The translations under genes and the position numbers were made by a program. The notes under the pieces were generated by a model. The model searched no databases. It was not told where the DNA came from and saw only the letters and a program-made list of their open reading frames with translations. Of a stretch of 64,000 nt of DNA, positions 29,590 to 46,102 are shown one piece after another. The first letter of the stretch is position 1, and every line of letters starts with the position of its first letter. The stretch comes from Streptomyces capitiformicae (GTDB lineage: Bacteria; Actinomycetota; Actinomycetes; Streptomycetales; Streptomycetaceae), in the NCBI RefSeq assembly GCF_002214185.1, contig NZ_CP022161.1:1983767-2047766 (forward strand). Reading direction: 5' to 3'.

Positions 29590-30003
29590 TCAGCCCGGGG
29601 TGTTCACCATCGAGGCCGCCGCGTACGTCAGGTAGCTCCACAGGGTGTGCTCGTGTTCCTCGGAGAGACCGATTTCGTCGACGGCGTCGCGCATGTGCTT
29701 CAGCCAGGCGTCGTGGGCCGCACGGTCGACGACGAACGGGGCGTGGCGCATGCGGAGACGGGGGTGGCCTCGGTTCTCGCTGTACGTGGTGGGGCCGCCC
29801 CAGTACTGGATCAGGAACAGGACGAGGCGCTCCTCGGCCGGGCCCAGGTCCTCCTCCGGATACATGGGCCGCAATATCGGGTCCTCGGCGACACCCTCGT
29901 AGAAACGGCGCACCAGGCGCCGGAAGGTCTCCTCGCCACCGACCTGCTCGTAGAAGGTCTGCTCCTGAAGCGTTCCCCGCCGGATCTCTTTCACGTACCC
30001 CAT
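29590..30003 (-). CDS. Truncated hemoglobin (group II type)
   Basis: 137 residues from the ATG at 30003; a GTG at 29994 (VKEIRRGTLQEQTFYEQVGG) is an alternative start. Globin features: FYEQVGGEETFRRLVRRFYE forms helices A-B/E with the tyrosine at B10 position, RPMYPEEDLGPAEERLVLFL leads to the F helix, and MRHAPFVVDRAAHDAWLKHM carries the proximal region with Trp at G8. Short length and the PxYPEED motif are typical of group II truncated hemoglobins, which bind O2 or NO. It is convergent with the upstream-facing conserved gene and divergent from the methyltransferase. Confidence 0.92.
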   Translation of the reverse strand: MGYVKEIRRGTLQEQTFYEQVGGEETFRRLVRRFYEGVAEDPILRPMYPEEDLGPAEERLVLFLIQYWGGPTTYSENRGHPRLRMRHAPFVVDRAAHDAWLKHMRDAVDEIGLSEEHEHTLWSYLTYAAASMVNTPG

Positions 30004-30038
30004 GGTCTCAGACGCGGGGACGGAGGACTCAAGGCTTA

Positions 30039-30113
30039 GGACCAGACTGCTTGGGACCAGACTGCTTGGGACCAGACTGCTTGGGACCAGACCGCTTGGG
30101 ACCAGACCGCTTG
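30039..30113. repeat. Five tandem copies of a 15-bp repeat in the globin/methyltransferase divergent region
   Basis: Units of ggaccagactgcttg start at 30039, 30054 and 30069, then ggaccagaccgcttg at 30084 and 30099: five perfect-length copies with one position varying. It lies between the globin start (30003) and the methyltransferase start (30194). As a multiple of three it would keep an upstream reading frame open (repeated LLGTR), but the family start and ribosome-binding site of the methyltransferase lie beyond it. Confidence 0.95.
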
Positions 30114-30193
30114 GGAGCGCGACCGGGGAGGGGCATTCCGCCCGGTGCGCCGTGACACTCGCCTCTTGGGACGTACCGCAGCACAGTGGAGAC

Positions 30194-31174
30194 ATGGGCA
30201 CGCACGCTGTGGACCACGATCTGGAGCGCCTCGCCGCCGAGGCCCGCTCGGCGCTCGTACGTGAGATCGAGGCGAGCGGGGCATGGGACGCCGATCCGGT
30301 ATGGCGGGAGGCGTTCGAGGCGGTGCCGCGTCATCTCTTCGTTCCGTACTACTACATCGGGGCCGTGGGCGGCTTCGAGCGGCTGTGGGGCGAGGAGCGC
30401 GACCCCAGGCGGCGTGCGCGCTGGGTGCGGGGAGCGTACGCCGACGCGCCACTGGCGACCCGGGTACGGGACGGCGAGTTGATCTCCTCCAGCAGTCAGC
30501 CCTCGCTGATGGCGAAGATGCTGGCCGAGTTGGAGGTGGAGGACGGCAACCGGGTGCTGGAGATCGGCGCCGGGACCGGTTACAACGCGGCGCTGCTCGC
30601 GCACCGGCTGGGCGACGACCTGGTCACGACGGTCGACCTGGACGTGGACATCACGGAGGCGGCGCGCAGGCATCTGGACGCCGCCGGGTACCACCCGACC
30701 GTCGTCACCGGGGACGGGGCGCGAGGAGTTCCCGAACGCGCCCCCTACGACCGGATCATCGCCACCTGCACGCTGCACTCGATCCCTCGACCCTGGCTCG
30801 AGCAGTGCGCCCCCGGCGGCCGCATCCTGACGCCGATGGCCACGGGGCTGGTCCGGCTGCGGGTCGAGGACGCCGAGCACGCCGAGGGGCGCTTCCTGCA
30901 CACGTCCGCGTACTTCGTGCCGTTGCGCGGCGGCAGTGAGCCGGAGGCGGTGCATCGGCATCTGGGCGGGCTGCCGCGCCGGGCCAGGGAGCACGAGCTG
31001 TTCCGGTTCCTGCTGGCCCTGACGGCGGGCAGCCTCGACCCGCACGAGGCGCTCGCGCTCTGGCAGCGGGAGGGCATGCCATCGCGCGAGCGCTACGGGA
31101 TCACGGTCAGCGGCGACCGTGCCTGGGCGTGGCTGGACGACCCGGAGGGGGCCTACTCCTGGCCCCTTCCGTGA
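30194..31174 (+). CDS. Protein-L-isoaspartate O-methyltransferase-like SAM methyltransferase
   Basis: 326 residues from the ATG at 30194 (TGGAG upstream). The frame is open 64 codons further through the 15-bp repeats, which I regard as non-coding. The SAM-binding motif I is RVLEIGAGTGYNAALLAHRL, preceded by SSSSQPSLMAKMLAELEV, where PCMT enzymes have the S-Q-P substrate/cofactor region. TVDLDVDITEAARRHL (motif II) and PYDRIIATCTLHSIPRPWLE follow. The C-terminal 130 residues extend past the usual PCMT length, as in actinobacterial maturase-associated methyltransferases. The substrate is not known: repair of damaged protein or modification of a peptide. Confidence 0.88.
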   Translation: MGTHAVDHDLERLAAEARSALVREIEASGAWDADPVWREAFEAVPRHLFVPYYYIGAVGGFERLWGEERDPRRRARWVRGAYADAPLATRVRDGELISSSSQPSLMAKMLAELEVEDGNRVLEIGAGTGYNAALLAHRLGDDLVTTVDLDVDITEAARRHLDAAGYHPTVVTGDGARGVPERAPYDRIIATCTLHSIPRPWLEQCAPGGRILTPMATGLVRLRVEDAEHAEGRFLHTSAYFVPLRGGSEPEAVHRHLGGLPRRAREHELFRFLLALTAGSLDPHEALALWQREGMPSRERYGITVSGDRAWAWLDDPEGAYSWPLP

Positions 31175-31222: not shown

Positions 31223-32977
31223 TCAGCCCCGGCGGATCGTGATCGTCGTCCACGCGCCCACGTGCACCCGGTCCCCGTCCTGGAGCGGGACCGGAACGAA
31301 GGGCTGGATGGGCTCCTCGGAGCCGTTGACCGTGGTTCCGTTCGTGGAGTTCTGGTCGACGATCGCCCAGCTGCCGTCGGGCTGCTGCACCAGTACCGCG
31401 TGCTGGTGCGAGACGCCCGGGTCCTCCGGCGGCACCGAGAGATCGATGTCGGGGGTGTCGCCGGTGGAGTGCCGGCGGCGGCCGATGGTGATCTGGTTGC
31501 CGGTGAGGGTGCGCTGCTGCTCGGGGGAGTACGCGGGCAGGTTCAGGCCCGCGGCCTCGGGGCCCGAGCGCTGCATCATCGCCATGAAGTACTCGCGGTC
31601 CGGGCCGATGGTCGCGCTCCAGGTCGCCGGTGCCTGCGGGTAGGCAGGACCGGGCGGGGCCTGGGTGGCGCCGGGCTGCGGATAGCCGTAACCGCCGGGG
31701 CGTGCCGCCGCACCGCTGGGACCGCCCGGGCCACCGTGCCCACCGGGGCCGGTCGACGAGGGCGGTGAGATCACCCAGTCATCGCCCCCGAAGGAGGGGC
31801 CACCCGACTGCGGACCACCGGGGCCGCCACGACCACCGGGACCCCCAGGGCCGCCGGGCTGGGGTCGCCCGGTCTCCTGCGGGAAGGCGGGCGGAGCCGG
31901 AGGCCCGGCCTGCTGGAACGCCTGGGGCGCCCCACCGGCCGGACCATTGCCGGGACCACCAGGGCCAGGACCAGGGCCGCCGGGACCACGGCCGCCCGGG
32001 CCGCCGGGGCCACCCGGCGTCGGGCCGGGCGGTGGCGGAACCGGCCGCGACGGATCGCCGCCGAAGCCCGAGGGGCCCGGCCGCGACGGGTCGCCGCCGA
32101 AGGCGGACGGACCGGGCTGTCCGGACGGACCACCCGGGCCTGAGGGCCCGCCACCGAAGAGGGACGGACCGCCGGGCCCACCGGGACCACCAGGGCCCGA
32201 AGAACCGCCGGGACCGGACGGGCCGCCGGGACCACCAGGACCGCTGGGGCCACCCGGTCCCGGGAAACCATCACGTCCACCGGGACCACCAGGACCGCCG
32301 GGGCCACCCGGCCCCGGGAAACCGTCACGTCCACCGGGACCGCCGGGACCACCAGGGCCGCCCGCCGGCCCACCGGGACCCGGGAAGCCGTCGCGCCCAC
32401 CCGGTCCACCCGGTCCACCGGGACCGCCCGGTCCACCCGGGCCCGAGGGCTCGCCGGCGAACGGCGGGCCGGGCGGGATCGGCTCGGCGGGGCGGTTCAT
32501 CTGCGAGGGCCGCGAGCTCTGGTAGTCGTACGCGTCACTGCCGCCGAAGGACGGCGGGGGCGGCTGCTGGAAGCGCAGCGCGGGGTTACCACCAGGGCCG
32601 GGACCAGGACCAGGGCCAGGGCCGGGCCCCTGACCGCCAGGGCCGGGGCCGGGGGCCGCAGGTCGGGGTGCGGCGGGCGTGTAGGTCGTCGCCGTGTTGG
32701 TCAGGAAGTTCCACCGGCACTCCTCGCAGAAGGGCGCGCCGCCCTCGCGGGGCGTGCGGCACTGCGGGCAGAGCTCCGGCTGGGCGGCGGCGGGCGGGCG
32801 TCCGCCGGGACCGCCCGCGCCCGGAGGCGGCGGAGGCGAGCCGGGCGGCGGGTATCCGTAACCGCTGCCCGAGGGCGGCGGTGGAGGCGGCGGGGGCACG
32901 GCACCGGCCATACGGTGACCGCAGACCTCGCACCAGTCGTCGGAACCCGACTGGTGTCCGTTCGGGCAGGTCGGCAT
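31223..32977 (-). CDS. FHA-domain protein with N-terminal zinc ribbons and a long Gly/Pro collagen-like linker
   Basis: 584 residues. The N-terminus has two zinc-ribbon knuckle sets: [17 protein letters not shown] (residues 4-20) and [19 protein letters not shown] (about 71-89). Residues 100-430 are a Gly/Pro linker with many GPGGPGG repeats, interspersed with Phe-Pro. The last 95 residues form an FHA domain: [20 protein letters not shown] (the SxxH phosphothreonine contact) and [15 protein letters not shown] domains bind phosphothreonine, so a partner phosphorylated by the PknG-like kinase upstream is the natural guess. It is the last gene of the seven-gene operon. Confidence 0.92.
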
Positions 32978-33061
32978 GTCGGCGCTTCCCCCTCTCCTTT
33001 CCGGCCCTTCGGCCGGGTTCTGTGGCCGCGACGGGCACTGAGTACTACTGACTACTGCTCG

Positions 33062-34408
33062 TTACTTCTTTACACGAACAGTCTTTGTCGACCGAGTCTC
33101 GAGAGTCATCTCGTCGGCCTCCGTGACCTTCGCCTTCAGTCGCACAGTACCTGTCGCCGCGTCGACCACGTCCACCACCTTCGCAAGCAGTTTCGCAGTA
33201 TCCGCGTTCCCCGACGCACTGGCGAGCTGAACGGCCCGTCCCAGCTTGGCCGTTGCTCCGTCGACATCGCCCGCTTTGCGGGCATCCAGCCCCTGTTGGA
33301 TGACTTGCGCCAGTTCGGCCTGACCTGTGTAGTGCGCGACTTGGGGGTTGATCGAGGTGGAGGCGGCCATGTCGTCGGTCCAGACGGCCTTCACCAGGCC
33401 CTGCGCGCCGAGGTTCTGCGCGGTGCTGTCGGGCTGCGGGATGACCAGGGAGACACGGGCGGCGAGCATCTCCTGGCCGAGGGTCGCGGGCGGGACCTCG
33501 ACGCACACGTGGTAGTCACGGGACTCGTCTCCCCACGAACCGGTCGGGTAGTCCCCGGCGCGCGGGCCGGCCTCGGTGCGGCGGTCGGTCAACTCCTCGA
33601 CCGTGGGGGCCACTTGTTTCACGAACTTGATCCGCGTGCCGACCGGCGTCCACAGCCGCAGGGCGACGTCCGCGACCTCCTTGCCCATGGTCGCCTCCAT
33701 CATCTGCGTGAAGTCGGCGGACAAGGCGGCAGGGTCGGCGATGATGTCGGCGGTGCCGAGCAGCGCGGAAGCGATCCCGGTGACCTCCTTGACCTCCCAG
33801 TCGGTGCCCACGCCACGCGCGTCACAGGTGAACCGCCCGGCACAGGCGTCCAGCGCGGCCTTCAGGTCCTCGGGCGACTCGTGCTCGTTGCGGCCGTCGG
33901 TGAGCAGGATCCCGTGCCGTATCGCGACGTCGGCCGAGGCGAGCAGGCGGTCGGCGAGCTTCAGCCAGGTGCCGATCGCCGTGCCGCCGCCCGCGCTGAG
34001 CTTGCGCAGCGCCTGCTTGGCCTGGTCCCGGGTGGTGGAGTCGGCGACCGCGAGCCGGCCGCCGCCGGGGTAGACCTCCCGGGCCACATGGGTGCCGTCG
34101 ATCACCGCGAAGTGAACCCCGTCACGCAGGGTGTCGATCGCGGCGGCCGTGGCGTCCCGGGCGTTGCGCATCTTGGTCGGCGGGTAGTCCATCGACCCCG
34201 AGCAGTCGACCATGATCGCCACGGCGGCGGACGGGCCCTGGCCGGGCGAGTAGAGGTGCGGCGCGGTGACGGCGCTGCCCACGGTGCCCCCGCCCGTCGC
34301 GCTCACCGTCACGATCGCGTTGACCTCGCGGCCGCCCTCGGGCAGGTACTCGTTCTGGTAGACGTCCACCGAGAACTGCGGCACGTTCGACTTCGAGAAA
34401 TTGGCCAT
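33062..34408 (-). CDS. VWA-domain protein of the kinase operon
   Basis: 448 residues, cytoplasmic (no signal peptide or membrane segment). A von Willebrand A domain occupies about 60-240 with a complete MIDAS metal site: MVDCSGSMD (DxSxS), then a conserved Thr near GGGTAIGTWLKLADR and Asp in GILLTDGRNEHES. The C-terminal half is beta-rich then ends in helices (LDARKAGDVDGATAKLGRAV). VWA proteins are metal-dependent adaptors. It begins 131 bases after the PP2C gene and 85 bases precede the FHA gene. In this operon it probably assembles the signalling complex. Confidence 0.9.
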   Translation of the reverse strand: MANFSKSNVPQFSVDVYQNEYLPEGGREVNAIVTVSATGGGTVGSAVTAPHLYSPGQGPSAAVAIMVDCSGSMDYPPTKMRNARDATAAAIDTLRDGVHFAVIDGTHVAREVYPGGGRLAVADSTTRDQAKQALRKLSAGGGTAIGTWLKLADRLLASADVAIRHGILLTDGRNEHESPEDLKAALDACAGRFTCDARGVGTDWEVKEVTGIASALLGTADIIADPAALSADFTQMMEATMGKEVADVALRLWTPVGTRIKFVKQVAPTVEELTDRRTEAGPRAGDYPTGSWGDESRDYHVCVEVPPATLGQEMLAARVSLVIPQPDSTAQNLGAQGLVKAVWTDDMAASTSINPQVAHYTGQAELAQVIQQGLDARKAGDVDGATAKLGRAVQLASASGNADTAKLLAKVVDVVDAATGTVRLKAKVTEADEMTLETRSTKTVRVKK

Positions 34409-34538
34409 GCCTACTCTGATCCCCCTAGCGGCCCCACAGCACGTGGGGTGATGACTGTGCGTGGCTGTGCCCGGACCAGTCCCCTCCGGTCCGTCGGCCG
34501 TTCCCGTCCTCCGGCCGCCGGGGCACCCGAAAGTGCCC

Positions 34539-35858
34539 TCAGGCCGATCCTGCCCCCGGAGGCGGGGCCGGGAACGGCAGGACGGCCACTGTTACGTTGT
34601 CGTGGCCACCGCCGTCGAGCGCGTGGCCGACCAGAACCTGGGCGCAGTGCAGCGGGCGCCCGGCCGCGTCCAGGGGCACGGCCTCGGCCATCTCCTCGGC
34701 GGCCTCCGCGTAGTTCCACAGCCCGTCGGTGCACACCACCACTACTCCCGGCCGGTCCGGTTTGAAGGAAGCGGTGTGCGGCTCCAGTTCGTACGCGTCC
34801 GCGCCGAGCCAGCCGGTGATCGCGTGGGCGCGCTCGTCGGCGTACGCCTCGGCCTCGCTCATCAGTCCCGCGGACACCATCTGTGCCGCCCAGGAATCGT
34901 CCTCCGTCAGCCGTGCGGCGGGAGCGCTCCGGTCCACGGGGACCCAGTAGGCGCGGCTGTCGCCGACCCAGCCGACGACGAGCAGGCTGGGGGTGACGAC
35001 GGAGCCGACGATGGTGCACGCCGGCGCGTTCTGGTGCGGGGCGTGCTCCTGGGCCGTCTCCGGTTCCTGCGCGAGGGCGTTGACGGCGCCCGAGGCGGCG
35101 ACGATCGCGTCGTGCATCGCCTGCTGCGGGTGCGTGCCGCGCGGGAGGGACTCCAGGAGTGTCTCGTTGGCGGCGCGGGCGGCGGCGAGGGAGGCGTCGT
35201 CGGGGCGGGTCGCGGACGACACGCCGTCGCAGACGATCGCGACGACGGCGGGGGAGCCGTCGGGCAGGGCGGTCGAGGAGACGGCGAACGCGTCCTCGTT
35301 GCGGTGATGGCGCAGCCCCCGGTCGCTGACTGCGGCGACCGCGCCCAACTCCTGCTCCATGTGGTCGCGTTCACGCGGCTGGGCGTGCCCGCAGTTCTCG
35401 CAGTAGCCGTCCCGGTCGACATACCCCGCCCGGCAGGCCACGCAGAGCTTCATGCCGGCCGGTGGGGTGGCCGGTTCGGCGGTGCGCGGGTCCGGCGGCA
35501 GGGGCGCCGCCAGCGGGTACTCGTCCGGTTCGCGGGGCCGGTCGAACCGCACGCCCCGCCCGGGGCCGGGCAGTTCGCCGCCGCCCGACTCGGTGCCCTG
35601 GAGGTCGGTGGGCAGGACGACCGGCGTGGACGGGCCCGAACCGGCCGACGGGGGTGCGACGGGCCAGGCCACGGACGCGGCCTCGTCCGGCGGGTCACCC
35701 GCCGTCCCGTTCATGGTGAGGGTCGGGTGGTCCTCCGGCGGCGCGGGCACCGCCGAGAGATCATGGCCGCACGCGCCGCAGAAGCGGTCGTCCGAGGCGA
35801 GCGGCCACTCGCAGATCGGGCACTTCGTCAGCGCGGTCGGCTGGGGCATCTGCGACAT
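34539..35858 (-). CDS. PP2C-family serine/threonine phosphatase with zinc-ribbon N-terminus
   Basis: 439 residues from the ATG at 35858 (MSQMPQPTALTKCPICEW). Two zinc ribbons precede the catalytic domain: CPICEWPLASDDRFCGACG near the start and CVACRAGYVDRDGYCENCG near 140-158. The PP2C domain (about 175-435) has all metal-binding motifs: DRGLRHHRNEDA, VCDGVSS, WVGDSRAYW, VCTDGLWNY and GHDNVTVAV. It should remove phosphate from Ser/Thr. It starts right behind the PknG-like kinase gene (35862), making a kinase/phosphatase pair. The zinc ribbons match those in the kinase and the FHA protein. Confidence 0.94.
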   Translation of the reverse strand: MSQMPQPTALTKCPICEWPLASDDRFCGACGHDLSAVPAPPEDHPTLTMNGTAGDPPDEAASVAWPVAPPSAGSGPSTPVVLPTDLQGTESGGGELPGPGRGVRFDRPREPDEYPLAAPLPPDPRTAEPATPPAGMKLCVACRAGYVDRDGYCENCGHAQPRERDHMEQELGAVAAVSDRGLRHHRNEDAFAVSSTALPDGSPAVVAIVCDGVSSATRPDDASLAAARAANETLLESLPRGTHPQQAMHDAIVAASGAVNALAQEPETAQEHAPHQNAPACTIVGSVVTPSLLVVGWVGDSRAYWVPVDRSAPAARLTEDDSWAAQMVSAGLMSEAEAYADERAHAITGWLGADAYELEPHTASFKPDRPGVVVVCTDGLWNYAEAAEEMAEAVPLDAAGRPLHCAQVLVGHALDGGGHDNVTVAVLPFPAPPPGAGSA

Positions 35859-35861
35859 CAA

Positions 35862-38459
35862 CTACACCCACGTCCGGGGGCGGTAACGGTTGGCACGTTC
35901 CACCAGGTCGATCCTCTCCTCGCCGCCTTGCGCGAGCCGGGCCAGCGTGCGGTACGCGCGCTCCAGTCCGAGGCGGAGGCCGCGCTCGTCCAGCGCGCTG
36001 CCGAGCAGCGTCCGCTCGCCGCCGGCCGGGGGCGCTCCACCCTGGCCTCCGGAGAGTACCCAGTCCAAGGCGCAGCCAAGGACCTCTGTGGACAACTGCT
36101 CACGGCGCACCGCGTCCAGACCGTACCCGCCGAGCGCCTCGACCTGGCCCGCGGCGGCGGTCAGGTCGTCCAGAAACGGTGCGTCCGGCGCGGCCCCGGA
36201 CGCGAGCGTGGCCTCCGTACGGTGTCTCAACCGCGCCCGTACGGCGGCGACCCGGGCGGCGGTGTAGTGGATGGACGCCTCCGGCACGGACTCCAGGGTG
36301 CGTACGGCGTTCTGCCGGTCCCCGGCGGTCAGCCGCACCCGGGCGAGCCCGAACGCGGCGCTGACGAAGCTGGGGTCGGTCGTCCACACCAGGCGGTAGT
36401 ACTCGGCGGCGTTGTCCAACTGCCCGAGGACCTCGGCGCACAGACCGAGGGCCAGCTTGGGGGCTGGCTCGCCCGGGAAGGCGTCGTAGATCGCGTCGAA
36501 GGACAGCGCGGCGTTCTCGTGGTCGCCGGTCGCGAGCGCGGCGACGCCCCGGTACCAGACGACCCGCCAGTCGTCGGGGTGGTCCCGCTCCAGGGCGTCC
36601 AGGGTGTTCTGTGCGAGGGGGAACTCGCCCATCTCCAGGCGGGCCCGCAACTCCCGCAGCCGCAGCTCCAGTGAGCCGGTGGGCGCCGCGTGCAGCGCGG
36701 TGATCAGCTCGGCGGGCGCGGAGGCGATGAGACCCGCCAGGAACCCGGCGTTCGGGTCGCCCGGGTCCACGCGGGGGATGGGCAGCGCGAGCGCCGCGGC
36801 GGCGGTGTCGAGCTGCTTGGTGAGCCGCGCGGGGGAGGAGGCCACGGCCGCGCCACCGGTCAACAGGGCGGACGTACCGGAAGGAGGAGCACCGTTCTTG
36901 GATTTCGTCTTCTCGCGGCGCATCCCCAGCCGGGACACATCCTCGTCCAGCGCACCGAACAACTCCGTGTCCGTGACCTTCAGTTCGGGCCCGAAGATCG
37001 TCGACAGGGCGGGGCGGGCCCGGCCCGTCTGGAGGGAGACGACCTCCCGCAGGACACCCGTCAGCTGCTCCGACATCTCCTGCGCGGAGGCGAACCGGCG
37101 GGCCGGGTCGGGGTCGGTGGCACGTACCAGCAGGCGGTAGAAGGACTCGTACTGGCGGAAGACCTCGATGTTGTCGGGGTCGGGCAGGGAGTCGACGAAG
37201 ACGCTCGTGTAGCCCTGGAAGTCGAAGGTCAGGACCGCGAGCGTACGCGCGACCGTGTACAGGTCGGACGCCACCGACGGGCCCGCGTCGGCGACTTCGG
37301 GCGCCTGGTAGCCGACCGTGCCGTAGATGGCCGACTCGTCGTCGTCCATCCTGCGCACCGCGCCCATGTCGATCAGCTTGAGCTGGTCCTCGGTCTGGAT
37401 GGCGTTGTCGACCTTGAAGTCGCAGTACAGCAGGTTGCGGCTGTGCAGATGGCCGAGGGCTTCGAGCGCCTCGATGCCGTACGCGCACGCCTGCTCGACC
37501 GGCAGGGGATCGCGGCGCCCGTCCGGTGTACGGCGGCCGTTGGCGATTTCCTTGAGGGACTTGCCGCCGACGTACTCCATGACGATGTACCCGTCCAGCG
37601 AGCCGGTGCGCTGGTCGAGGTGCTCGACGAAGTTGTAGATACGGACGATGTTGTTGTGCTCGATCTCGGCGAGGAAGCGGCGCTCGGAGATCGCGGCGGC
37701 CATCGCGTCCTGGTCACCGGTGTCGAGGAGGCCCTTCAGCACGACCCAGCGGTCGGACACGGCCCGGTCTATGGCGAGGTAGATCCAGCCCAGACCGCCG
37801 TGCGCGAGGCAGCCCACGACCTCGTACTGGCCGCGCACGATGTCGCCCGAGTGCAGCTTCGGCACGAACGAGTACGGGTGGCCGCACCTGGTGCAGAAGC
37901 CCTCCGTGCGCCCCGGCTGGTCGCCGCGCGCCCGCCCCACCGGCGCCCCGCAGTCGGAGCGTGAGCAGAACCGCTTGCGCTCGGGCACCTCGGCGGTCTC
38001 CAGGACCATCGAGCGCGGGTCCGGGCGCGGCACGTCCGGCACCTGGACCAGACCGACGCCGAGCCGGGCCCGGCCGGAGGAGGAGACGGTCTTGCCGGAG
38101 CTGCGGACGGACACCGAGCGGCCCGTCGACTTGCCCGACAGGGCGCGCGAGAGGCGGCCGGAGACCGAGCGCCGGGACTGCGCGGAGCGCGAGGACGGCC
38201 GGGAGGCGCGCGAGGAGCTGCTGGAGCCGGAGCCGCGTGAGCCCTTGCCGCCGGTGATGCCGGTGGGCGGGGAGGCGACCATGCCGTCGGGTGAGACGAC
38301 CGGTGCCAGACCGCAGGTGTCGCAGTACAGCTCGCCGCCGCCCACGTCCTCGTACGAGCCCTCGCAACCGGGTCGCTGACAGGACTGCTGCTGACCCTGC
38401 TCGCTCGTCTGTTCGCCTGCCTGACCTGTGCCTGCCCGGCCTTCGCCTGTCTGACTCAC
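35862..38459 (-). CDS. PknG-type serine/threonine protein kinase
   Basis: 865 residues. A zinc-ribbon (CQRPGCEG...YCDTCG) opens the protein, then a Ser-rich disordered stretch, then a rubredoxin-like pair (CSRSDCGAPVGR and FCTRCGHPYSF) just before the kinase, as in mycobacterial PknG. The kinase domain (about 215-480) has the atypical glycine loop LAHGGLGWIYLAID, a catalytic loop NLLYCDFKVDNA in place of the HRD form, and LIDMGAV for DFG. The C-terminal 350 residues are TPR-like helical repeats. Its GTG start overlaps the stop of the coiled-coil gene (GTGA). In mycobacteria PknG with GlnX and GlnH responds to Asp/Glu. Confidence 0.93.
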   Translation of the reverse strand: MSQTGEGRAGTGQAGEQTSEQGQQQSCQRPGCEGSYEDVGGGELYCDTCGLAPVVSPDGMVASPPTGITGGKGSRGSGSSSSSRASRPSSRSAQSRRSVSGRLSRALSGKSTGRSVSVRSSGKTVSSSGRARLGVGLVQVPDVPRPDPRSMVLETAEVPERKRFCSRSDCGAPVGRARGDQPGRTEGFCTRCGHPYSFVPKLHSGDIVRGQYEVVGCLAHGGLGWIYLAIDRAVSDRWVVLKGLLDTGDQDAMAAAISERRFLAEIEHNNIVRIYNFVEHLDQRTGSLDGYIVMEYVGGKSLKEIANGRRTPDGRRDPLPVEQACAYGIEALEALGHLHSRNLLYCDFKVDNAIQTEDQLKLIDMGAVRRMDDDESAIYGTVGYQAPEVADAGPSVASDLYTVARTLAVLTFDFQGYTSVFVDSLPDPDNIEVFRQYESFYRLLVRATDPDPARRFASAQEMSEQLTGVLREVVSLQTGRARPALSTIFGPELKVTDTELFGALDEDVSRLGMRREKTKSKNGAPPSGTSALLTGGAAVASSPARLTKQLDTAAAALALPIPRVDPGDPNAGFLAGLIASAPAELITALHAAPTGSLELRLRELRARLEMGEFPLAQNTLDALERDHPDDWRVVWYRGVAALATGDHENAALSFDAIYDAFPGEPAPKLALGLCAEVLGQLDNAAEYYRLVWTTDPSFVSAAFGLARVRLTAGDRQNAVRTLESVPEASIHYTAARVAAVRARLRHRTEATLASGAAPDAPFLDDLTAAAGQVEALGGYGLDAVRREQLSTEVLGCALDWVLSGGQGGAPPAGGERTLLGSALDERGLRLGLERAYRTLARLAQGGEERIDLVERANRYRPRTWV

Positions 38460-39781
38460 GATTCCTCCCCTCTCCGGTCCTGGGGCTCACGCGGGGCCGG
38501 CACGGACTGGCCCAGCAGTTCGGCCGCCGCCTGCTGGTAGCGCAGTACGGCCTGCTCGGCGACGCGCAGGTCGCAGGGGGCGCTCCACAGCATGCGGCGC
38601 GCCGCGTCGTACCGCTCGATGAGCAGCGAGTCCTCCGCGAAGCCATGCCTCGCGACCTTCGCCTTGTAGGCGTCGAGGCGGCCGCGCAGCTCGGCGCGGA
38701 CCGCCAGGGGCGCGGTGACCGCCGTCAACGACTCGCGGGCGCGCAGCAGTTCGTCGTCCGCCTTCTGCTCCAGGGAGTCAAGCAGCGGGGACAGCCGGTG
38801 CCACTGCGCGTGTCTGCGGTACTCGGCGGCCATCGCCAACTGCTCCTGCAACACCGTCGGCGGACCGGAGACCACGGGCACCTCGGTCGCGGCGATCTTC
38901 GCCAGCACCTCGCCGCGGGCACTGCGCGCCTCGGCGAGCGTGCGGTCCGCGCGGCTGAGTACATCCCGCAGCTTCACCAGCCGCGCCTCCGCGTCCTGCC
39001 GGACCGTCAACACGGCCTCGATCTCCCGGCGTACGTCCTCCAGGGCGCGCGCCTCGCGGTCGTAGGCCGAGGTGTCCGGGCGGCCGCCGCCGGGCGCCGA
39101 ACTGCCCGGTGCAGGGGTCCAGAAGGCCAGCGGGTCGGAGACGACCTGCTCGCGGAGCCTGGTCAGGGTGCGGGTGATCCGCTCCAGGTCGTCGCCCGCC
39201 GGGTGCTCGCCGGGGCGTACGCCTACGGAGTGCGCGAGTTGGCGCGTGCGCTGGAGTTCGGCAGCCAGTAAATCGATCCGGGCGGGCAGCGCGGACCACA
39301 CCGCGTCGGCGGCCACGACCATGTCCAGCGAGGACGCGTACAGGTCGTTCATCCGGTCCACCAGCGTGGACAGCGAGAACTGCTCGCTGAGGCGGCTCGC
39401 GCCCTGCAGCGTCGGCGCGTTCGCCATGGCCGTGGCGGAGCCGGCGACCGTGACGGCCTCGCCGCGCAGCAGCTCGGTCAGCTCCACCAGGTCCTCGCGG
39501 CTGGACCAGCGGCGGCGCGAACGGATCTCGCGGGCGCTGTGCAGCGCGTCCGTGTACGCGTCGAAGTACGCCCACAGCAGCGTGATCGACGCCTCCGCGG
39601 AGGCCCACCGCTCTTGGGTGACGCCGGTCAGCGCGGCGCCTTCGAGGAGTCTGCGGCCCGCGTGGTCCTGCAGGGCGAGGAGCGAGGTCTCGATGGCCTC
39701 GTGCTCCGCGCCGAGCCGCGCAAGCGCACGGTCCACCTCGTCCCGGTCCATCACCGGCCCGGTGGATCCCGCGACGCCCAT
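38456..39781 (-). CDS. Coiled-coil protein of unknown function inside the glnH-pknG operon
   Basis: 441 residues, almost entirely helical with heptad-like stretches: ALEDVRREIEAVLTVRQDAE, RLVKLRDVLSRADRTLAEAR and LQEQLAMAAEYRRHAQ. No membrane segment or known domain. It lies between the GlnH-like gene and pknG with a GTGA overlap to pknG, a position with no counterpart in the mycobacterial glnX-glnH-pknG unit as I know it. A scaffold or regulator of the kinase is the natural hypothesis. It contains few aromatic residues and one cysteine. Confidence 0.85.
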   Translation of the reverse strand: MGVAGSTGPVMDRDEVDRALARLGAEHEAIETSLLALQDHAGRRLLEGAALTGVTQERWASAEASITLLWAYFDAYTDALHSAREIRSRRRWSSREDLVELTELLRGEAVTVAGSATAMANAPTLQGASRLSEQFSLSTLVDRMNDLYASSLDMVVAADAVWSALPARIDLLAAELQRTRQLAHSVGVRPGEHPAGDDLERITRTLTRLREQVVSDPLAFWTPAPGSSAPGGGRPDTSAYDREARALEDVRREIEAVLTVRQDAEARLVKLRDVLSRADRTLAEARSARGEVLAKIAATEVPVVSGPPTVLQEQLAMAAEYRRHAQWHRLSPLLDSLEQKADDELLRARESLTAVTAPLAVRAELRGRLDAYKAKVARHGFAEDSLLIERYDAARRMLWSAPCDLRVAEQAVLRYQQAAAELLGQSVPAPREPQDRRGEES

Positions 39782-39858
39782 CGATCACCTCTCGCTGCTG
39801 TCGGGGTCGGTCAGTTGGTCTGTACGTGGTCCGTCTGTGCGTGGTCGGTTCCTGTACT

Positions 39859-40890
39859 TCAGTCCCGGTACTGCTGGCCCGCCGACGGCCGGGAGTTCGC
39901 CGAATCCGCGCCGAGCGTCGCGGACAGCCAGTTGGTGTACGAGTCCTGCCAGCCGTCCTTCAGGTAGTCCACCAGCACCTGATTGACCCGGCGTACCAGA
40001 TCCTCGGCCTTCAGATTCATCGCCACGCCGTAGTACTCGGTGGTGAAGGGCGCGCCCTGCAACTCGACCGTCGGATCCTGCGCCGCCTGGCTCGCGGCGA
40101 GCGCGCCGTCCGTGACCACGGCGTCGGCCTCGCCGAGCTGGAGCCTTACCAGGCAGTCGAGTTGGTTGGGCACCTCGATGATCCTGGCGTCGGCGGCCGG
40201 CCTGCCCGGTTTCTGATCCTCTTCAAGGGCGGTCAGGGCGGTGGAGCCGGAGGCCGCGCAGACCTTCGTGCCCGCCAGCGTCTCGTCGTAGCCCTTGATC
40301 GTCGAGGACTTGGGAACCAGGACCTGCTGGCCGGTCTTGAAGTACGGCTGGGAGAAGGCGACTTCCTTCATGCGCTTGCAGCTGATCGTCATCGTGCGGA
40401 CCACCATGTCGACCTGCCCCGATTCGATCGCGGGGATGCGCTGGTTCGTGGGAATCGCCCGGAAGCGCACCTTCTTCGGGTTGCCGAGGATCTCCTCGGC
40501 TATGCGGTGCGCCAGGTCGATGTCGAAACCCTCCAACTCGGCGCCCGCCTCCGTGTTGTTCGGGTCGCGGTAGCCCCAGCGGTAGCTGTTCTGGTCGACA
40601 CCGACCGTGATGTAGTCCTTCTCCTTGATCTTCGCGATCGTGGCGCCGGACTCGTCGGAGGACGGCCTGAGGCTCTGGTTCTGCGGATCGTCCATGGTGT
40701 CGCACTCGTCCGCCCGCACCTGGGTGCCCCGGGTGACGCCCTGGCCGCCGGTTCCCGTGGAGCCGTCGCCGCGTGTCCCGCTCAGCGGCAGCATGAGGGC
40801 GAAGACCACGGTCAGGGCGCAGAGGACGGCCATCGCGCCCACGCCGCCCCAGCCCCTGAGGCCTGCCCTCAGGCGTCGTACCGCACTCAT
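39859..40890 (-). CDS. glnH: GlnH-like glutamate/aspartate-binding protein, membrane-anchored
   Basis: 343 residues from the ATG at 40890, preceded by GAAGGAGGAGG; an upstream ATG at 40932 overlaps the glnX stop but has a weaker site. The N-terminus (GVGAMAVLCALTVVFALMLP) is a signal anchor without lipobox Cys, unlike the lipoprotein form in mycobacteria. The rest is a type 3 amino-acid-binding fold: ITVGVDQNSYRWGYRD, ELEGFDIDLAHRIAEEILG, MVVRTMTISCKRMKEVAFSQ and YYGVAMNLKAEDLVRRVNQV. It binds extracellular Asp/Glu and signals to PknG through GlnX. No transporter genes are nearby, supporting a sensory role. Confidence 0.88.
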   Translation of the reverse strand: MSAVRRLRAGLRGWGGVGAMAVLCALTVVFALMLPLSGTRGDGSTGTGGQGVTRGTQVRADECDTMDDPQNQSLRPSSDESGATIAKIKEKDYITVGVDQNSYRWGYRDPNNTEAGAELEGFDIDLAHRIAEEILGNPKKVRFRAIPTNQRIPAIESGQVDMVVRTMTISCKRMKEVAFSQPYFKTGQQVLVPKSSTIKGYDETLAGTKVCAASGSTALTALEEDQKPGRPAADARIIEVPNQLDCLVRLQLGEADAVVTDGALAASQAAQDPTVELQGAPFTTEYYGVAMNLKAEDLVRRVNQVLVDYLKDGWQDSYTNWLSATLGADSANSRPSAGQQYRD

Positions 40891-40928
40891 CGTTCCTCCT
40901 CCTTCCACCGCGTCTCCTCCGGTCGTCC

Positions 40929-42446
40929 TCATCGGTACTCCGAGAGCCTGCGCCCGATGCCGAGGACCGCGCCCGCCGCGCCCAGTACCGCCAGGACGGC
41001 GGCGCCCACCGGGAGTCCGAGCATCGCGTTCCGGCCGCCCTCGGCCGCCAGCCGGAACTCCTCCTCCTCGTGCCCGCGCGCGTTGTCCAGGTTCTGGTCG
41101 ACCTTGTCGAAGCAGTCGCCCGTCGGCTTGTCGCCCTGCGGGCAGTCGGCCGACACCTTGCCGTCCTTGGCACCGATCACCTGGTCGAGGGCACACTGGA
41201 AGTCGCCCCCGTCGTCGGCCTTGCGGGCGCTCTCGTGCCGCTCCAGCCAGACCTCCATGTTGGCGGTGGCGGCCTGCACGGGCTTCTCGCCGCTGGCGTC
41301 GTCGGCGATCTTCTCGGCGTCGGCCAGCGCCGACTTGAGCTCGCTCATGTCGCCCGTGAACTCGTGGTCGAACGTGTCGACGGTCGTGTCCTTGCCGTCG
41401 ACCTTGATCGTCGTGGTCTCGGCGCCACGGCTGATCAGCGTCAGGTTCTCGTTGCCGCGGGCCTTGAGGGAGGCGATGCTCGCGTCGTTCAGCACGGTCA
41501 GGGACCGCACGCCGTTGTCGTACGAGTCGTTCAGCCCCGAGCGGGCGACGGTGTGGCCGACGGTCAGCCACAGCAGGACGACCGTGGAGGCGGCCGTCGC
41601 CGCGACCAGGCCGTGGTTCAACACCCGGTTCGTACGCCGGTAGTTGCGGCGCTGGGCCCAGGCCAGGCCGGCGAGGGCGACGACGCCGAGGCCGATCGCG
41701 GCCCACGGATACGACGTGGCGTCGGCGTAGTCGTCGCGCAGGCGCTGGTTCTCGTTGTCGTAGATCTTCTGCGCCTTCGGGAGCATGTCGCCCTGCATCT
41801 TGGAGTTCGCGTAGCGCAGGTAGGCGCCGCCCAGCGGGTAGCCCAGGCGGTTGTTGGCGCGGGCCCGCTCGACCAGGCCCTTGTACTCCGGCAGCAGTTC
41901 GTTCAGTTCGGCGACGAGCTTCTCGGATTCGGAGCCGGTCTCGGAGGCCGCGGCCGCGGCGGCCAGATTGTCGGCGGCATCCGCGATCTCCCGTTCGTAT
42001 CTGTCGCGCGATGCCTTCGTTTCCTGGCCGCCGGCGAGGAAGCCGCTGGAGGCCGCTGTGTTGGCGTCGGCGAGGGAGCGGTAGATGTCGGCCGCGGCGG
42101 AGCTGAGGGGCTGACTGCTGTGGAGCACGTCGTCGGCGGCGCTCGAACGGTCGTTCATCTGCCAGGCGGTGACGGAGCCGAACGCGACGACGAGGAAGGC
42201 GAGGACAGCGCCGATGATGCGCAGGCGGCCGGGCTCGGTCACCGCGGCGGCCTTCAACTGGTCGAGGCCCTCCGCGAACGCCGTCCGGCGGGGTGGGCCG
42301 CCGTCGGGGCCAGGGGGCGGCACGGGTGGCCGGGACGTGTACGCGCCCTGCGGCGGCACGGCCGGGGCCGCGGCGCCCGGGTGCGGGCCGGCGGACGCGG
42401 CGGACGGTGCCGGTGGTGCCGCGCGGCCCTTCGGCGTGTATGTCAC
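40929..42446 (-). CDS. glnX: GlnX-like membrane sensor
   Basis: 505 residues. A Pro/Ala-rich cytoplasmic N-terminus (residues 1-60) leads to membrane helix one (IIGAVLAFLVVAFGSVTAW). Helical extracytoplasmic regions follow, with further membrane helices near 245-265 (WAAIGLGVVALAGLAW), 280-302 (AATAASTVVLLWLTVGHTVA) and at the C-terminus (PVGAAVLAVLGAAGAVLGIG). The two long outside loops are helical, like four-helix sensors. It opens the operon with GlnH and PknG, matching mycobacterial GlnX, which links GlnH ligand binding to PknG. Its stop overlaps the upstream GlnH ATG. The assignment rests on topology and gene order. Confidence 0.85.
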   Translation of the reverse strand: MTYTPKGRAAPPAPSAASAGPHPGAAAPAVPPQGAYTSRPPVPPPGPDGGPPRRTAFAEGLDQLKAAAVTEPGRLRIIGAVLAFLVVAFGSVTAWQMNDRSSAADDVLHSSQPLSSAAADIYRSLADANTAASSGFLAGGQETKASRDRYEREIADAADNLAAAAAASETGSESEKLVAELNELLPEYKGLVERARANNRLGYPLGGAYLRYANSKMQGDMLPKAQKIYDNENQRLRDDYADATSYPWAAIGLGVVALAGLAWAQRRNYRRTNRVLNHGLVAATAASTVVLLWLTVGHTVARSGLNDSYDNGVRSLTVLNDASIASLKARGNENLTLISRGAETTTIKVDGKDTTVDTFDHEFTGDMSELKSALADAEKIADDASGEKPVQAATANMEVWLERHESARKADDGGDFQCALDQVIGAKDGKVSADCPQGDKPTGDCFDKVDQNLDNARGHEEEEFRLAAEGGRNAMLGLPVGAAVLAVLGAAGAVLGIGRRLSEYR

Positions 42447-42860: not shown

Positions 42861-42861
42861 T
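42813..42861. repeat. Dispersed Streptomyces intergenic repeat, copy 1
   Basis: Contains ggttgcgggttgtgtgtggt followed by gctcgcgcagttccccgcgc, then cccct. The second copy at 58.2-58.3 kb shares both parts (gctgcgggttgcatgtggct, and the complement aggggcgcggggaactgcgc). It ends at the 3' end of the sugar-kinase gene. Confidence 0.7.
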
Positions 42862-43859
42862 TAGGGCTCGAGGGCTTCGAAATGTGCGCGTACGCGCGCG
42901 TGGGCCTCTTTTTTCGCGCCCGCTTGGTCCAGGCCCAGTAGGGCCGCGCCCAGGACGGGGGGCGCTGTGACCACCTTGGGGGTGGCCTTTGGGGCTGCGG
43001 TGGCCAGTAGGTCGCGTACTCGGGTGTCGAGGTGGGGGTGGCGGGCCGCCAGGACGCTGCCGCCGAGGAGGACGGGGGTCTCCTCCTCCAACAGGTCCAG
43101 GCGGGTGAGGGCCACCGTGGCCATGGTGACCACCTCCTCGGCCAGGCGGTCGATCAGGGAGCGGGCCACCGGGTCGCCGGCGGCCGCCGTGGCGAAGAGC
43201 ACCGGGGTCAGCTCGTGGCGGCGGGCGGGCGGGATGTTCTCCAGGTGGAGGGCCTCGATCAGGGCGTACATGGAGTCCAGGCCGAAGTGCGCGGGCAGGG
43301 TCCGGGCGAGGGCGGTCGGGCCGCCCCGGCCGTCCTCCGCGCGGGCCGCGTGCCACATCGCCTCCTCGGCGAGGCCCCAGCCGCCGCCCCAGTCGCCGGA
43401 GACGCGCCCGAGCGCGGGGAAGCGGGCGGTGCGGCCGTCGGGGCGCATGCCGACGCAGTTGATGCCGGCGCCGCACACCACGGCCACCCCGCGCGGCTCG
43501 GCCACGCCCGCCCGGAGGATCGCGAACGTGTCGTTGCGGACCTCGACCGAAGCGCCCCACACGCGCGCGTGCAGCGCGGCGGCCAGCCCTTCCTCCTCTA
43601 CGGGGAAGTCGGCGTTGGCGAGGCAGGCCGACACATGGTCGACCGCCTCGACGCCCGCCTCGTCGAAGGCCTCCCGCACCACCTCCGCCAGGGCGTCCAC
43701 GGCCGTCGGCACCCCCACCGCCGGCGGCCGGAACCCGCCCCCGCGAGCCGTGCCCAGCACCTCCCCGTCAGCCGCGATCACTGCCACGTCGGTCTTGCTG
43801 TTGCCCGCGTCGATCGCGAGGACACTCCCGGTCACGCCCGCGCTCACACCAACGCTCAT
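42861..43859 (-). CDS. BadF/BadG/NagK-type sugar kinase
   Basis: 332 residues from the ATG at 43857-43859 overlapping the GH4 stop. ASKHA-fold phosphate loop LAIDAGNSKTDVAVIAADGE at the N-terminus, VEVRNDTFAILRAG (catalytic Asp region), VAVVCGAGINCVGMRPDGR and VSGDWGGGWGLAEEAMWHAA are typical of N-acetylglucosamine kinase-like proteins. The second half has LLGGSVLAARHPHL, the adenosine motif. It should phosphorylate a sugar, probably an amino sugar or the disaccharide imported by the neighbouring ABC system. It follows the GH4 gene with an ATGA overlap. Confidence 0.9.
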   Translation of the reverse strand: MSVGVSAGVTGSVLAIDAGNSKTDVAVIAADGEVLGTARGGGFRPPAVGVPTAVDALAEVVREAFDEAGVEAVDHVSACLANADFPVEEEGLAAALHARVWGASVEVRNDTFAILRAGVAEPRGVAVVCGAGINCVGMRPDGRTARFPALGRVSGDWGGGWGLAEEAMWHAARAEDGRGGPTALARTLPAHFGLDSMYALIEALHLENIPPARRHELTPVLFATAAAGDPVARSLIDRLAEEVVTMATVALTRLDLLEEETPVLLGGSVLAARHPHLDTRVRDLLATAAPKATPKVVTAPPVLGAALLGLDQAGAKKEAHARVRAHFEALEP

Positions 43860-45121
43860 GCCCACGCGAGGTGCTCCCGGTTGTGCGCGATCAGCTTGTC
43901 GGTGAGGGCGTCGGCGTACTCGTACTGGCCGATCAGGGGGTGGGCCAGCAGCGCCCGGAACACGCGGTTCCGGCCGCCGCGCAGCGCCGCGTCGAGCGCC
44001 AGGTCCTCGTAGGCGGTCACGTTCGCCATCAGACCGGCGTACAGCGGATCCACGGACGGCACCGGCAGCGGGGCGGCGCCCTCGCCGCTCACTGACGCCT
44101 GTACCTCGATCACCGCGTCGGCGGGGAGGAAGGGCAGCGTGCCGTGGTTGTACGTGTTCACCACCTGGTACGTGCTGCCGCTGCCGCCCAGCAGCGACGC
44201 GGCCAGGTCGACGGCGGCCTCCGAGTAGTACGCGCCCCCGCGCTCGGCGAGCAGCGCGGGCTTCTCGTCGAGCGCCGGGTCGGCGTACATCCGAAGCAAC
44301 TCGCGCTCCATACGGGCCACTTCGGCGGCCCGCGAGGGCTTGGTGCGCAGCTCCCGTACGACCTCGTCGTGGGCGTAGAAGTAGCGCAGGTAGTAGGAGG
44401 GGACCACGCCCAGGCGGTCGAGGAGGGGGCGGGGCAGCCGCAGGTCGGCGGCGATCGTCCCGCCGTGGTCGGTCAGCAGCTTCGCGAGGACGTCCTCGCC
44501 CGCGGGGCCGCCGAGGCGGACTCCGGTCTCCCAGGTGAGGTGGTTGAGACCCACATGGTCCAGGTGCACCTCGGCCGGGGTCACGCCCAGCAGGTTGGCG
44601 AACTTCCGTTGCAGTCCGATCGCCACATTGCACAGTCCGATCGCCTTGTGACCGGCCTTGAGCAGGGCGCGGGTCACGATCCCCACCGGGTTCGTGAAGT
44701 CGATGATCCAGGCGTCAGGGTTCGTACGGCGGACCCGTTCGGCGATGTCCAGGACGACCGGGACCGTGCGCAGCGCCTTCGCCAGGCCACCGGCACCGGT
44801 CGTCTCCTGCCCGACGCAGCCGCACTCCAGCGGCCAGGTCTCGTCCCGCTCCCTGGCCGCCTGTCCGCCGACCCGGAGTTGCAGCAGCACGGCGTCGGCG
44901 TCCGCCACGCCCGCGTCCAGGTCGGCCGTCGTCACGATCCGCCCGGGGTGTCCCTGACGGGCGAAGATGCGCCGGGCCAGACCGCCGACCAGCTCCAGCC
45001 GCTCGGCGGCCGGATCGACGAGCACCAGCTCCTCGATCGGCAGCGTGTCCCGGAGCCGGGCGAACCCGTCCACGAGTTCGGGTGTGTAGGTCGAGCCTCC
45101 GCCGACCACGGTGAGCTTCAC
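43856..45121 (-). CDS. Glycoside hydrolase family 4 (6-phospho-beta-glucosidase type)
   Basis: 421 residues from the GTG at 45121 (GGAG at 6 bases); the frame is open 26 codons upstream. GH4 enzymes use NAD and a divalent metal in an oxidation-elimination mechanism. The NAD loop is KLTVVGGGSTYTPELVDGF; the metal site Cys and His are in GLCNVAIGLQRKF and DHVGLNHLTWETG; FTNPVGIVTRALL is also typical. The family usually cleaves 6-phosphorylated disaccharides. Here the sugar enters by ABC transport, so the coupled kinase may supply the phosphate. Confidence 0.93.
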   Translation of the reverse strand: MKLTVVGGGSTYTPELVDGFARLRDTLPIEELVLVDPAAERLELVGGLARRIFARQGHPGRIVTTADLDAGVADADAVLLQLRVGGQAARERDETWPLECGCVGQETTGAGGLAKALRTVPVVLDIAERVRRTNPDAWIIDFTNPVGIVTRALLKAGHKAIGLCNVAIGLQRKFANLLGVTPAEVHLDHVGLNHLTWETGVRLGGPAGEDVLAKLLTDHGGTIAADLRLPRPLLDRLGVVPSYYLRYFYAHDEVVRELRTKPSRAAEVARMERELLRMYADPALDEKPALLAERGGAYYSEAAVDLAASLLGGSGSTYQVVNTYNHGTLPFLPADAVIEVQASVSGEGAAPLPVPSVDPLYAGLMANVTAYEDLALDAALRGGRNRVFRALLAHPLIGQYEYADALTDKLIAHNREHLAWA

Positions 45122-45173
45122 TGAGGACTCCATGACTTCAGGACACGGGGCACGCCGACGAACGGCCGGGGGT

Positions 45174-45191
45174 CCGGGGGTTGTCCCCCGG
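45174..45191. terminator. Short intercistronic hairpin between permease and GH4 genes
   Basis: CCGGGGG pairs with CCCCCGG around TTGT. It lies in the 90-base spacer of an otherwise tightly packed operon and could reduce read-through into GH4. Confidence 0.5.
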
Positions 45192-45211
45192 GGAAGCACT
45201 GCATGTGGATA

Positions 45212-46102
45212 TCAACCCTTCACTCCGGTCAGAGTGACGCCCTCGACGAACGCCTTCTGAGCGAAGAAGAACACGAGGATCACGGGGGCCATGACCAGCA
45301 CGGTCGCGGCCATGGTCAGATTCCAGTCGGTGTGGTGCGCGCCCTTGAAGGACTCCAGGCCGTAGCTCAACGTCCAGGCGGCGGGGTTCTCCGAGGCGTA
45401 GATCTGTGGGCCGAAGTAGTCGTTCCAGGCGTAGAAGAACTGGAAGAGGGCGACAGCCGCGATACCCGGCTTGGCCATGGGCAGGACGACCCGCACCAGG
45501 GTGCGCAGTTCGCCGCAGCCGTCCACCCGGGCCGCGTCCAGGTACTCGTTCGGGATGGTCGTCAGGAACTGCCGCAGCAGGAAGATCGAGAACGCGTCCC
45601 CGAACGCCATCGGGATGATCAGCGGCCACAGTGAGCCCGACAGGTCCCACTGCTTCGCCCAGAACAGGTACATCGGGATGACGACCACCTGCGGCGGCAG
45701 CATCATCATCGAGATGACCAGCATCAGCGCCGGATTCCGGCCCCGGAAGCGGAACTTGGCGAGGGCGTACGCCACGGGGAGGGACGACACGACGGTGAGG
45801 ACGGTGCCGAGGCCCGCGTAGATCAGGGTGTTCTTCCACCAGGTCAGGAAGCCGGGGGTGTCGAAGACCTGCCGGTAGTTGTTCCACTCCCAGGTGTCCG
45901 GGACGAGGTCGCGGGTGAGGGCCTGCTGGTCGCTCATCAGCGAGGTGAGGACGACGAACACGAAGGGCAGGGTGAAGAAGAGCGCGGCGGCGACACCGAG
46001 GGAGTGGACGGCGATCCACTCCAGGAGCACGCGCCGGCGTGCGGTGCGCTCACTCGTGACGGAGACATCCGCCAGTGCGGGCTTGTCGAGTATCCGGGTC
46101 AT
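45212..46102 (-). CDS. Carbohydrate ABC transporter permease (MalG-type)
   Basis: 296 residues from the ATG at 46102, which overlaps the upstream permease stop (ATGA). Six membrane segments, the first SLGVAAALFFTLPFVFVVLT, and an EAA loop AARVDGCGELRTLVRVVLPM. With the MalF-type permease and lipoprotein upstream it forms a sugar importer. No dedicated ATPase gene is present. The operon order (binding protein, two permeases, GH4, kinase) implies import of a beta-linked disaccharide and cytoplasmic processing. Confidence 0.93.
   Translation of the reverse strand: MTRILDKPALADVSVTSERTARRRVLLEWIAVHSLGVAAALFFTLPFVFVVLTSLMSDQQALTRDLVPDTWEWNNYRQVFDTPGFLTWWKNTLIYAGLGTVLTVVSSLPVAYALAKFRFRGRNPALMLVISMMMLPPQVVVIPMYLFWAKQWDLSGSLWPLIIPMAFGDAFSIFLLRQFLTTIPNEYLDAARVDGCGELRTLVRVVLPMAKPGIAAVALFQFFYAWNDYFGPQIYASENPAAWTLSYGLESFKGAHHTDWNLTMAATVLVMAPVILVFFFAQKAFVEGVTLTGVKG

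Follow-up and report, generated by a model that had tools for sequence, protein, structure and literature searches.

The GlnX-GlnH-PknG pathway is reported to be broadly conserved, including in Streptomyces (PMC6069109), and the glnX-glnH-pknG operon has been given as three genes (PMC8546545, PMC9769921). The main text of PMC6069109, as distinct from its figures and supplements (among them a STRING panel), does not mention the terms phosphatase, von Willebrand, forkhead or coiled. A literature search that covered titles and abstract openings, in part among the top hits only, returned no description of a seven-gene locus, which is not proof of its absence. We analysed such a locus in a 64,000-nucleotide stretch of DNA (the window), positions 1,983,767-2,047,766 of the 11.0 Mb single-contig genome of Streptomyces capitiformicae. 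At 31223-42446 of the window, seven co-directional open reading frames (ORFs) lie on the minus strand in the 5' to 3' order GlnX, GlnH, an all-helical coiled-coil protein (CC), PknG, a PP2C phosphatase, a von Willebrand factor A protein (VWA) and a forkhead-associated protein (FHA).

The mycobacterial and corynebacterial glnX-glnH-pknG operons, which work with GarA or OdhI, have related GlnX, GlnH and PknG proteins in the same order, and GarA is encoded elsewhere (PMC6069109, PMC8546545, PMC9769921). In comparison with that three-gene operon, the window set has CC, PP2C, VWA and FHA, an extra zinc ribbon on PknG, a zinc ribbon on GarA, and Gln in place of Trp232 of GlnH. Sets that combine a kinase, a PP2C phosphatase and a VWA protein are known from TerY-P (PMC11090510) and from GAP1-N2 neighbourhoods (PMC7159879). 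The TerY-P triad is described as a VWA protein, a PP2C phosphatase and a Ser/Thr kinase with a C-terminal zinc ribbon (PMC11090510); the window locus likewise has kinase, PP2C and VWA genes together, as well as zinc ribbons, and its VWA protein was assigned by Pfam to VWA_3/VWA_3_C. Its kinase, however, is a PknG with rubredoxin and TPR domains, in which the ribbons are N-terminal and the C-terminus is the TPR domain rather than a zinc ribbon, and CC, FHA, GlnX and GlnH are additional. The actinobacterial GAP1-N2 GTPase systems also place a zinc-ribbon kinase beside an active PP2C and a stand-alone VWA protein (PMC7159879), but the seven window genes include no GTPase gene and have a solute-binding sensor instead. 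Some Streptomyces and one genome of family f3 (bacterial families are coded f1, f5 and so on) were found to hold a second, diverged PknG-like kinase adjoining a VWA gene (L187-L190, L194). These kinases were 31-39% identical and the adjoining VWA genes 34-40% identical; unlike the window locus, the pairs showed no match to GlnX, GlnH, PP2C or FHA within the 20 kb retrieved (tblastn, E <= 1e-3). Short CC matches lay upstream of the pair in L189 and L190.

A sequence-only reading of the window had proposed that gene order be compared across actinomycetes, and the comparison supports the seven as one conserved genetic unit, widespread, common and old, and no local extension. The 80 best named relatives of the window PknG, taken from at least 557 confirmed Streptomyces-type loci, were all from Streptomyces and up to 90% identical. 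All seven genes were present in the same order and on one strand in 60 of these 80 loci, and the other 20 all had less than 7.5 kb of 3' DNA. Outside Streptomyces, 102 PknG loci were sampled, comprising the class-wide places of PF16919 (the PknG rubredoxin domain) minus those of 15 of the 25 genus-g7 genomes, together with loci from 8 of 13 f3 genomes of the order, one f43 locus and one from Nonomuraea, a genus whose PknG groups with f91 rows and which may be part of a coded family. PP2C, VWA and FHA were all beside pknG in 51 of the 102, spread over eight coded families and Nonomuraea (f3 6, f9 7, f85 1, f91 21, f92 11, f111 1, f43 1, f5 2, Nonomuraea 1); the f43 locus is a long locus outside the class. 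Two of the three genes were beside pknG in 6 loci, one in 15 (9 with short flanks) and none in 30 (f5 24, f115 2, f92 2, f91 1, f3 1; 5 with short flanks). The PF16919 domain itself was found in 112/119 genomes of the order (E <= 1e-3), in 131/394 genomes and 26/137 genera of the class (E <= 1e-15), and in 26/396 genomes of the phylum (E <= 1e-8); the VWA gene was found in 112/121 Streptomyces (E <= 1e-60). A CC profile run over all fetched loci recognised CC in 64 of the 72 long ones. In 20 of the 21 f91 long loci and in Nonomuraea, GlnH was downstream of FHA, whether or not GlnX was matched too; pknG still preceded PP2C in these loci and followed CC wherever CC was matched.

The distribution of the genes points to a locus of two separable halves, which we designated Half A (GlnX, GlnH, PknG) and Half B (CC, PP2C, VWA, FHA). 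Mycobacteria-like loci consist of GlnX-GlnH-PknG alone. Family f5 was taken as mycobacteria-like on the basis of its three-gene layout and of a GarA with ETTSVFRADFL, as in the GarA chain 7rj3. Of the 26 f5 loci, 24 lack any Half B gene, including CC as judged by a profile search; CC occurred in this family only with the rest of Half B, in both long loci (L171, L199) and in 0 of 24 short ones, and it was found in 0/2 loci of f115. The two long f5 loci belong to genomes G803 (L168-L171) and G733 (L198-L200), each of which also holds a short locus (L168 and L198, respectively) and further PknG copies. The VWA gene had no match (E <= 1e-10) genome-wide in 16 other f5 genomes, of which 15 had PknG loci fetched that contained no Half B gene. 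It was present in 3 of the 20 genomes searched: in G733, in G803 and, beside another PknG-like kinase, in G704 of f115.

Loci that lack the kinase point the same way. Among 119 genomes of the order, no match to the PknG rubredoxin domain was found in five Streptomyces (G040, G044, G084, G087, G111), and a sixth, G022, gave a weak match only. In G084 and G087 the frames of CC, PP2C, VWA and FHA remain open and in order, with no GlnX, GlnH or PknG match at the locus (GlnX and GlnH were searched at the locus only). At E <= 1e-10 the rest of either genome yielded no relative of PknG apart from two matches in G087, to the kinase domain and at 31-32%. In G084 the stretch that separates CC from PP2C, searched by itself, matched the last part of PknG over 24 residues (58%, E 1e-4); the corresponding stretch of G087 was only suggestive (E 0.64). 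The two genomes were sisters in a 24-row tree (support 1.0), with a synonymous divergence (dS) of 0.50-0.65 and ratios of nonsynonymous to synonymous divergence (dN/dS) of 0.13 for CC, 0.17 for PP2C, 0.26 for VWA and 0.05 for FHA. The corresponding ratios in a kinase-bearing control pair, L184/L191, were 0.19, 0.08, 0.20 and 0.02. If the pknG deletion predates the split of G084 and G087, as their shared layout suggests, Half B would be under purifying selection without PknG, perhaps somewhat relaxed. In G022 (L193), PknG, GlnH, GlnX and VWA are in fragments and CC, PP2C and FHA are intact, and an assembly fault is possible. The sequence-only reading had described the circuit as self-contained, which is undercut by the two genomes that hold PP2C, VWA and FHA under selection without pknG; it had also named a separation of these three genes from pknG as evidence against itself, and such a separation does occur, in this minority of two genomes and not generally.

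The same reading had suggested that the FHA protein could play the part of GarA, which did not hold. Of the 11 FHA-domain matches in the genome, one is a GarA orthologue at C1:9448448-9448906, 7.4 Mb from the locus (matched to the GarA/OdhI chains 7rj3, E 2e-45, and 2kfu, E 6e-45), which carries ETTSTISISG behind an N-terminal zinc ribbon, unlike the f5 copies. GarA was found once per genome in 20/20 genomes tested, with or without the seven-gene locus; ETTST was present in 10/10 Streptomyces copies and ETTSVFRADFL in three f5 copies. No ETT motif was found in any of 130 operon FHA frames when the last 620 residues of each were searched, and the operon FHA protein scored 19.2 bits against the NCBIfam OdhI model NF041660, for which the cut-off is 200. 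The operon FHA protein is a second reader and not GarA. Two further FHA proteins and a PP2C phosphatase lie side by side at G000:C1:2387695-2388421 (L127, L131), an arrangement that we take to resemble the general fhaA-fhaB-pstP locus.

Zinc ribbons at the N-terminus are shared by the kinase, phosphatase and reader of the long form, and likewise by GarA in most such lineages. The extra ribbon of PknG, which precedes the rubredoxin domain, was present in 117 of the 122 long loci with the anchor motif (Streptomyces accounts for 87 of these) and in none of the 18 short f5 or f115 loci that had both the anchor and full flank; f92 was mixed (4/7 long, 1/6 partial). These counts leave out 44 frames without the anchor motif. 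In long loci, 64/78 PP2C frames had two ribbons, and a strict pattern detected one or more in 74/76 FHA frames. The GarA ribbon was present in 10/10 Streptomyces copies and in 5/5 copies from f91, f92, f3 and f9, and it was absent from the 3/3 f5 and 2/2 f115 copies examined. In this small sample the GarA ribbon goes with the families that use the long locus. Streptomyces without the seven-gene locus nevertheless keep it, and G803 and G733 hold a long locus, yet their GarA has no ribbon.

The ligand pocket of GlnH was compared with the published contacts: Arg147, Thr162 and Trp232 touch the side chain of the ligand, and its amine and carboxyl groups are contacted by Ser164, Arg169 and Asp250 (PMC6069109). 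With the numbering placed by hand on the chain, Arg147, Thr162, Arg169 and Asp250 are identical in the window GlnH, Ser164 is replaced by Thr, and Trp232 by Gln. Across 111 GlnH rows, Arg147 was retained in 105, Thr162 in 93, Arg169 in 103 and Asp250 in 101. Trp232 occurred in only 23 of them (19/20 short f5, 2/2 long f5, 2/2 f115), and in 0/25 Streptomyces rows, 22 of which have Gln there. The Asp/Glu control that had been proposed, with an acidic amino acid as the likely ligand, is plausible, but the pocket differs at Trp232.

The seven proteins are as the sequence-only reading had identified them, on the evidence of ORFs, Pfam, NCBIfam and PDB relatives. PknG, the genome's only match to the PknG rubredoxin domain, matched PF16919, PF00069 and PF16918 above their cut-offs and aligned with PDB 2pzi (E 1e-165); the lysine, catalytic Asp and DxG, which we take to have the roles so named, were retained. 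GlnX scored 496.8 bits (cut-off 250) in the NCBIfam GlnX family NF058618 and 189 bits (cut-off 780) against the equivalog NF041460, protein kinase G-activating GlnX, and so is a member of the GlnX family and not that equivalog. GlnH matched PDB 6h1u/6h2t (E 5e-44), and VWA matched its solved relative PDB 4fx5 over its whole length (E 3e-140). CC has invariant Trp, Arg, Gly and Pro positions across 32 sequences, and its AlphaFold2 model consists of long helices (pLDDT 88.9) with no match to solved folds at E <= 0.001 (Foldseek). Residue conservation in long loci was counted with the named Streptomyces thinned to every eighth. The metal-site Asp residues of PP2C, with positions taken from an alignment with PstP and roles that we presume, were retained in 81-82 of 82 loci, and a nearby Arg in 69/82. 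The metal ion-dependent adhesion site (MIDAS) of VWA was retained in 75-77/78, and the phosphothreonine-binding residues of FHA (GR, SxxH, NG; motif as in PMC1262709) in 77-78/78.

Our best explanation, to which we give roughly an even chance, is a widely conserved phosphosignalling locus of two separable halves, in which Half B organises and reverses phosphorylation by PknG and also serves other kinases. GlnH would sense a ligand outside the cell, probably one of the acidic amino acids, and GlnX would relay this signal to PknG, as mycobacterial and corynebacterial genetics indicates. The main metabolic target of PknG would probably still be GarA, encoded elsewhere. CC may act as a helical scaffold, PP2C would strip phosphates, the FHA protein would dock phosphothreonine, and VWA may make a metal-dependent contact through its MIDAS. 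Where both halves are present, the most likely role of Half B is to organise phosphorylation by PknG and to undo it, with the shared zinc ribbons as candidate docking handles; because Half B survives without PknG, it would also serve other kinases. Several observations weigh against this explanation. The CC profile missed 8 of the 72 long loci, and the f91 loci L213, L214, L217 and L218 contain CC, PknG, PP2C and FHA with no VWA match. The dN/dS values of the kinase-less pair are above the control for PP2C, VWA and FHA, and below it for CC, so some relaxation is possible. Because GarA is present whatever the state of the locus, GarA control does not require the seven genes. Survival of Half B without PknG may also mean that its main job is unrelated to PknG.

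This last point leads to a different explanation, that Half B is an independent signalling unit that reads and erases the marks of other kinases and shares its locus with PknG for joint expression only. It agrees with the purifying selection on CC-PP2C-VWA-FHA in G084 and G087, with the intact CC, PP2C and FHA of G022 beside fragments of the other four genes, and with the PP2C-VWA-kinase sets known in other settings (PMC7159879, PMC11090510). Yet pknG keeps its place within the block, followed by PP2C and preceded by CC wherever CC was found, even when GlnX-GlnH is downstream; the extra PknG ribbon tracks the long form; and of the six Streptomyces that have no intact PknG, three (G040, G044, G111) are missing the VWA gene as well, which fits joint function. 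We regard full independence of Half B as possible, if rather doubtful. A self-contained Asp/Glu circuit with the operon FHA protein as GarA-like output of PknG, the model of the sequence-only reading, would account for the conserved linkage of all seven genes and for the intact FHA binding residues. It is very improbable given the GarA orthologue with ETTST elsewhere in the genome, the missing ETT motif and low OdhI score of the operon FHA proteins, and the persistence of Half B without PknG.

The locus had also been presented as an extension of the three-gene unit, and here the evidence runs the other way: the long form is common and the short form looks derived. For a PknG tree, 61 rows were chosen from 125, and four of the PknG-like kinases that pair with VWA genes served as the outgroup. 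In this tree the short f5 clade (100/100) joined the long loci L171 and L199 of its own family (100/99), and the rows other than this clade and f115 were long. Because three-gene loci are placed beside seven-gene loci of their own family, the three-gene unit is more likely a reduced form of the long locus, with reduction in the f5 and f115 lines, and parsimony requires two changes; the root is not settled. The opposite view takes three genes as the ancestral state, with a single gain of the other four after the mycobacteria-like lineage had split off. A tree that joins the short f5 clade to the outgroup, which counts against reduction, was not rejected at 0.05 (approximately unbiased test, p-AU 0.069), and the outgroup branches are long. 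A single clade of all long loci was rejected, however (p-AU 0.0185), and the position of the short f5 clade, the long form of the other rows except f115 and the long locus outside the class in f43 also speak against this view, which we consider improbable. Taken further, the reduction of the long locus leads to a tentative picture, which may well prove wrong, in which an older actinobacterial machine was stripped down to the GlnH-GlnX-PknG-GarA pathway. The N-terminal ribbons on kinase, phosphatase, FHA reader and GarA would be a common docking code on a CC/VWA scaffold, and mycobacteria-like lineages would have lost the four partner genes, the extra ribbon of PknG and the GarA ribbon, with a general phosphatase opposing PknG.

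PknG is a much-studied kinase, and the form of its locus that is known is the three-gene one of mycobacteria and corynebacteria. Should many actinomycetes have a seven-gene form that brings a phosphatase, a reader and a scaffold of its own, the eraser and the assembly of the pathway would be open to direct study in Streptomyces, and the mycobacterial wiring could be read as the outcome of losses. With the natural kinase-less loci, the assignment of each partner to one half or the other can readily be tested.

The features of the locus are listed in the table. All seven genes lie on one strand within the span given by the sequence-only reading, which had reported overlaps between several of them: CC and PknG do overlap, by 4 nt, and this is the sole overlap, since PP2C only abuts PknG and the other gaps measure 38 nt (GlnX/GlnH), 77 nt (GlnH/CC), 130 nt (PP2C/VWA) and 84 nt (VWA/FHA). 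The long GlnH ORF that overlaps GlnX is a mere upstream extension; the ATG at 40890 stands behind a purine-rich stretch. No promoter-like site turned up in a pattern scan of the locus, nor did any terminator-like site on the minus strand. We infer that the seven genes are transcribed as one operon.

Features of the seven-gene locus (positions in the window)
Feature	Position	Strand	Details
GlnX-family membrane signal transducer	40929..42446	-	505 aa, GTG start; NCBIfam NF058618; alignment of 36 sequences
GlnH-like solute-binding protein	39859..40890	-	343 aa, ATG 40890; Pfam; PDB 6h1u/6h2t; pocket columns
CC, all-helical coiled-coil protein	38456..39781	-	441 aa; 4-nt overlap with pknG
PknG-type Ser/Thr kinase	35862..38459	-	865 aa, GTG; Pfam; PDB 2pzi
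Extra N-terminal zinc-ribbon pattern of PknG, C27-C49	38313..38381	-	found in long-form PknG
PknG rubredoxin domain, residues 129-202	37854..38075	-	PF16919, 99.5 bits
PknG kinase domain, residues 212-471	37047..37826	-	PF00069, 88 bits
PknG TPR domain, residues 545-863	35871..36827	-	PF16918, 295 bits
PP2C phosphatase, two N-terminal zinc ribbons	34539..35861	-	440 aa; TTG start, or ATG one codon on
VWA protein, intact MIDAS and VWA_3_C domain	33062..34408	-	448 aa; Pfam; PDB 4fx5
FHA reader: N-terminal zinc ribbons, Pro/Gly-rich linker, C-terminal FHA	31223..32977	-	584 aa
FHA domain, residues 496-574	31256..31492	-	PF00498, 61.6 bits

Adjoining the 3' end of the seven-gene set in the window is a PCMT-type methyltransferase gene (30002-31174, plus strand), and a gene of this type also lies 5' of CC in the kinase-less loci L262 and L263. 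Upstream of GlnX, at 42861-46975 on the minus strand, are genes for a BadF-type ATPase, a family 4 glycosyl hydrolase and a transporter permease, which perhaps form a sugar-uptake cluster.

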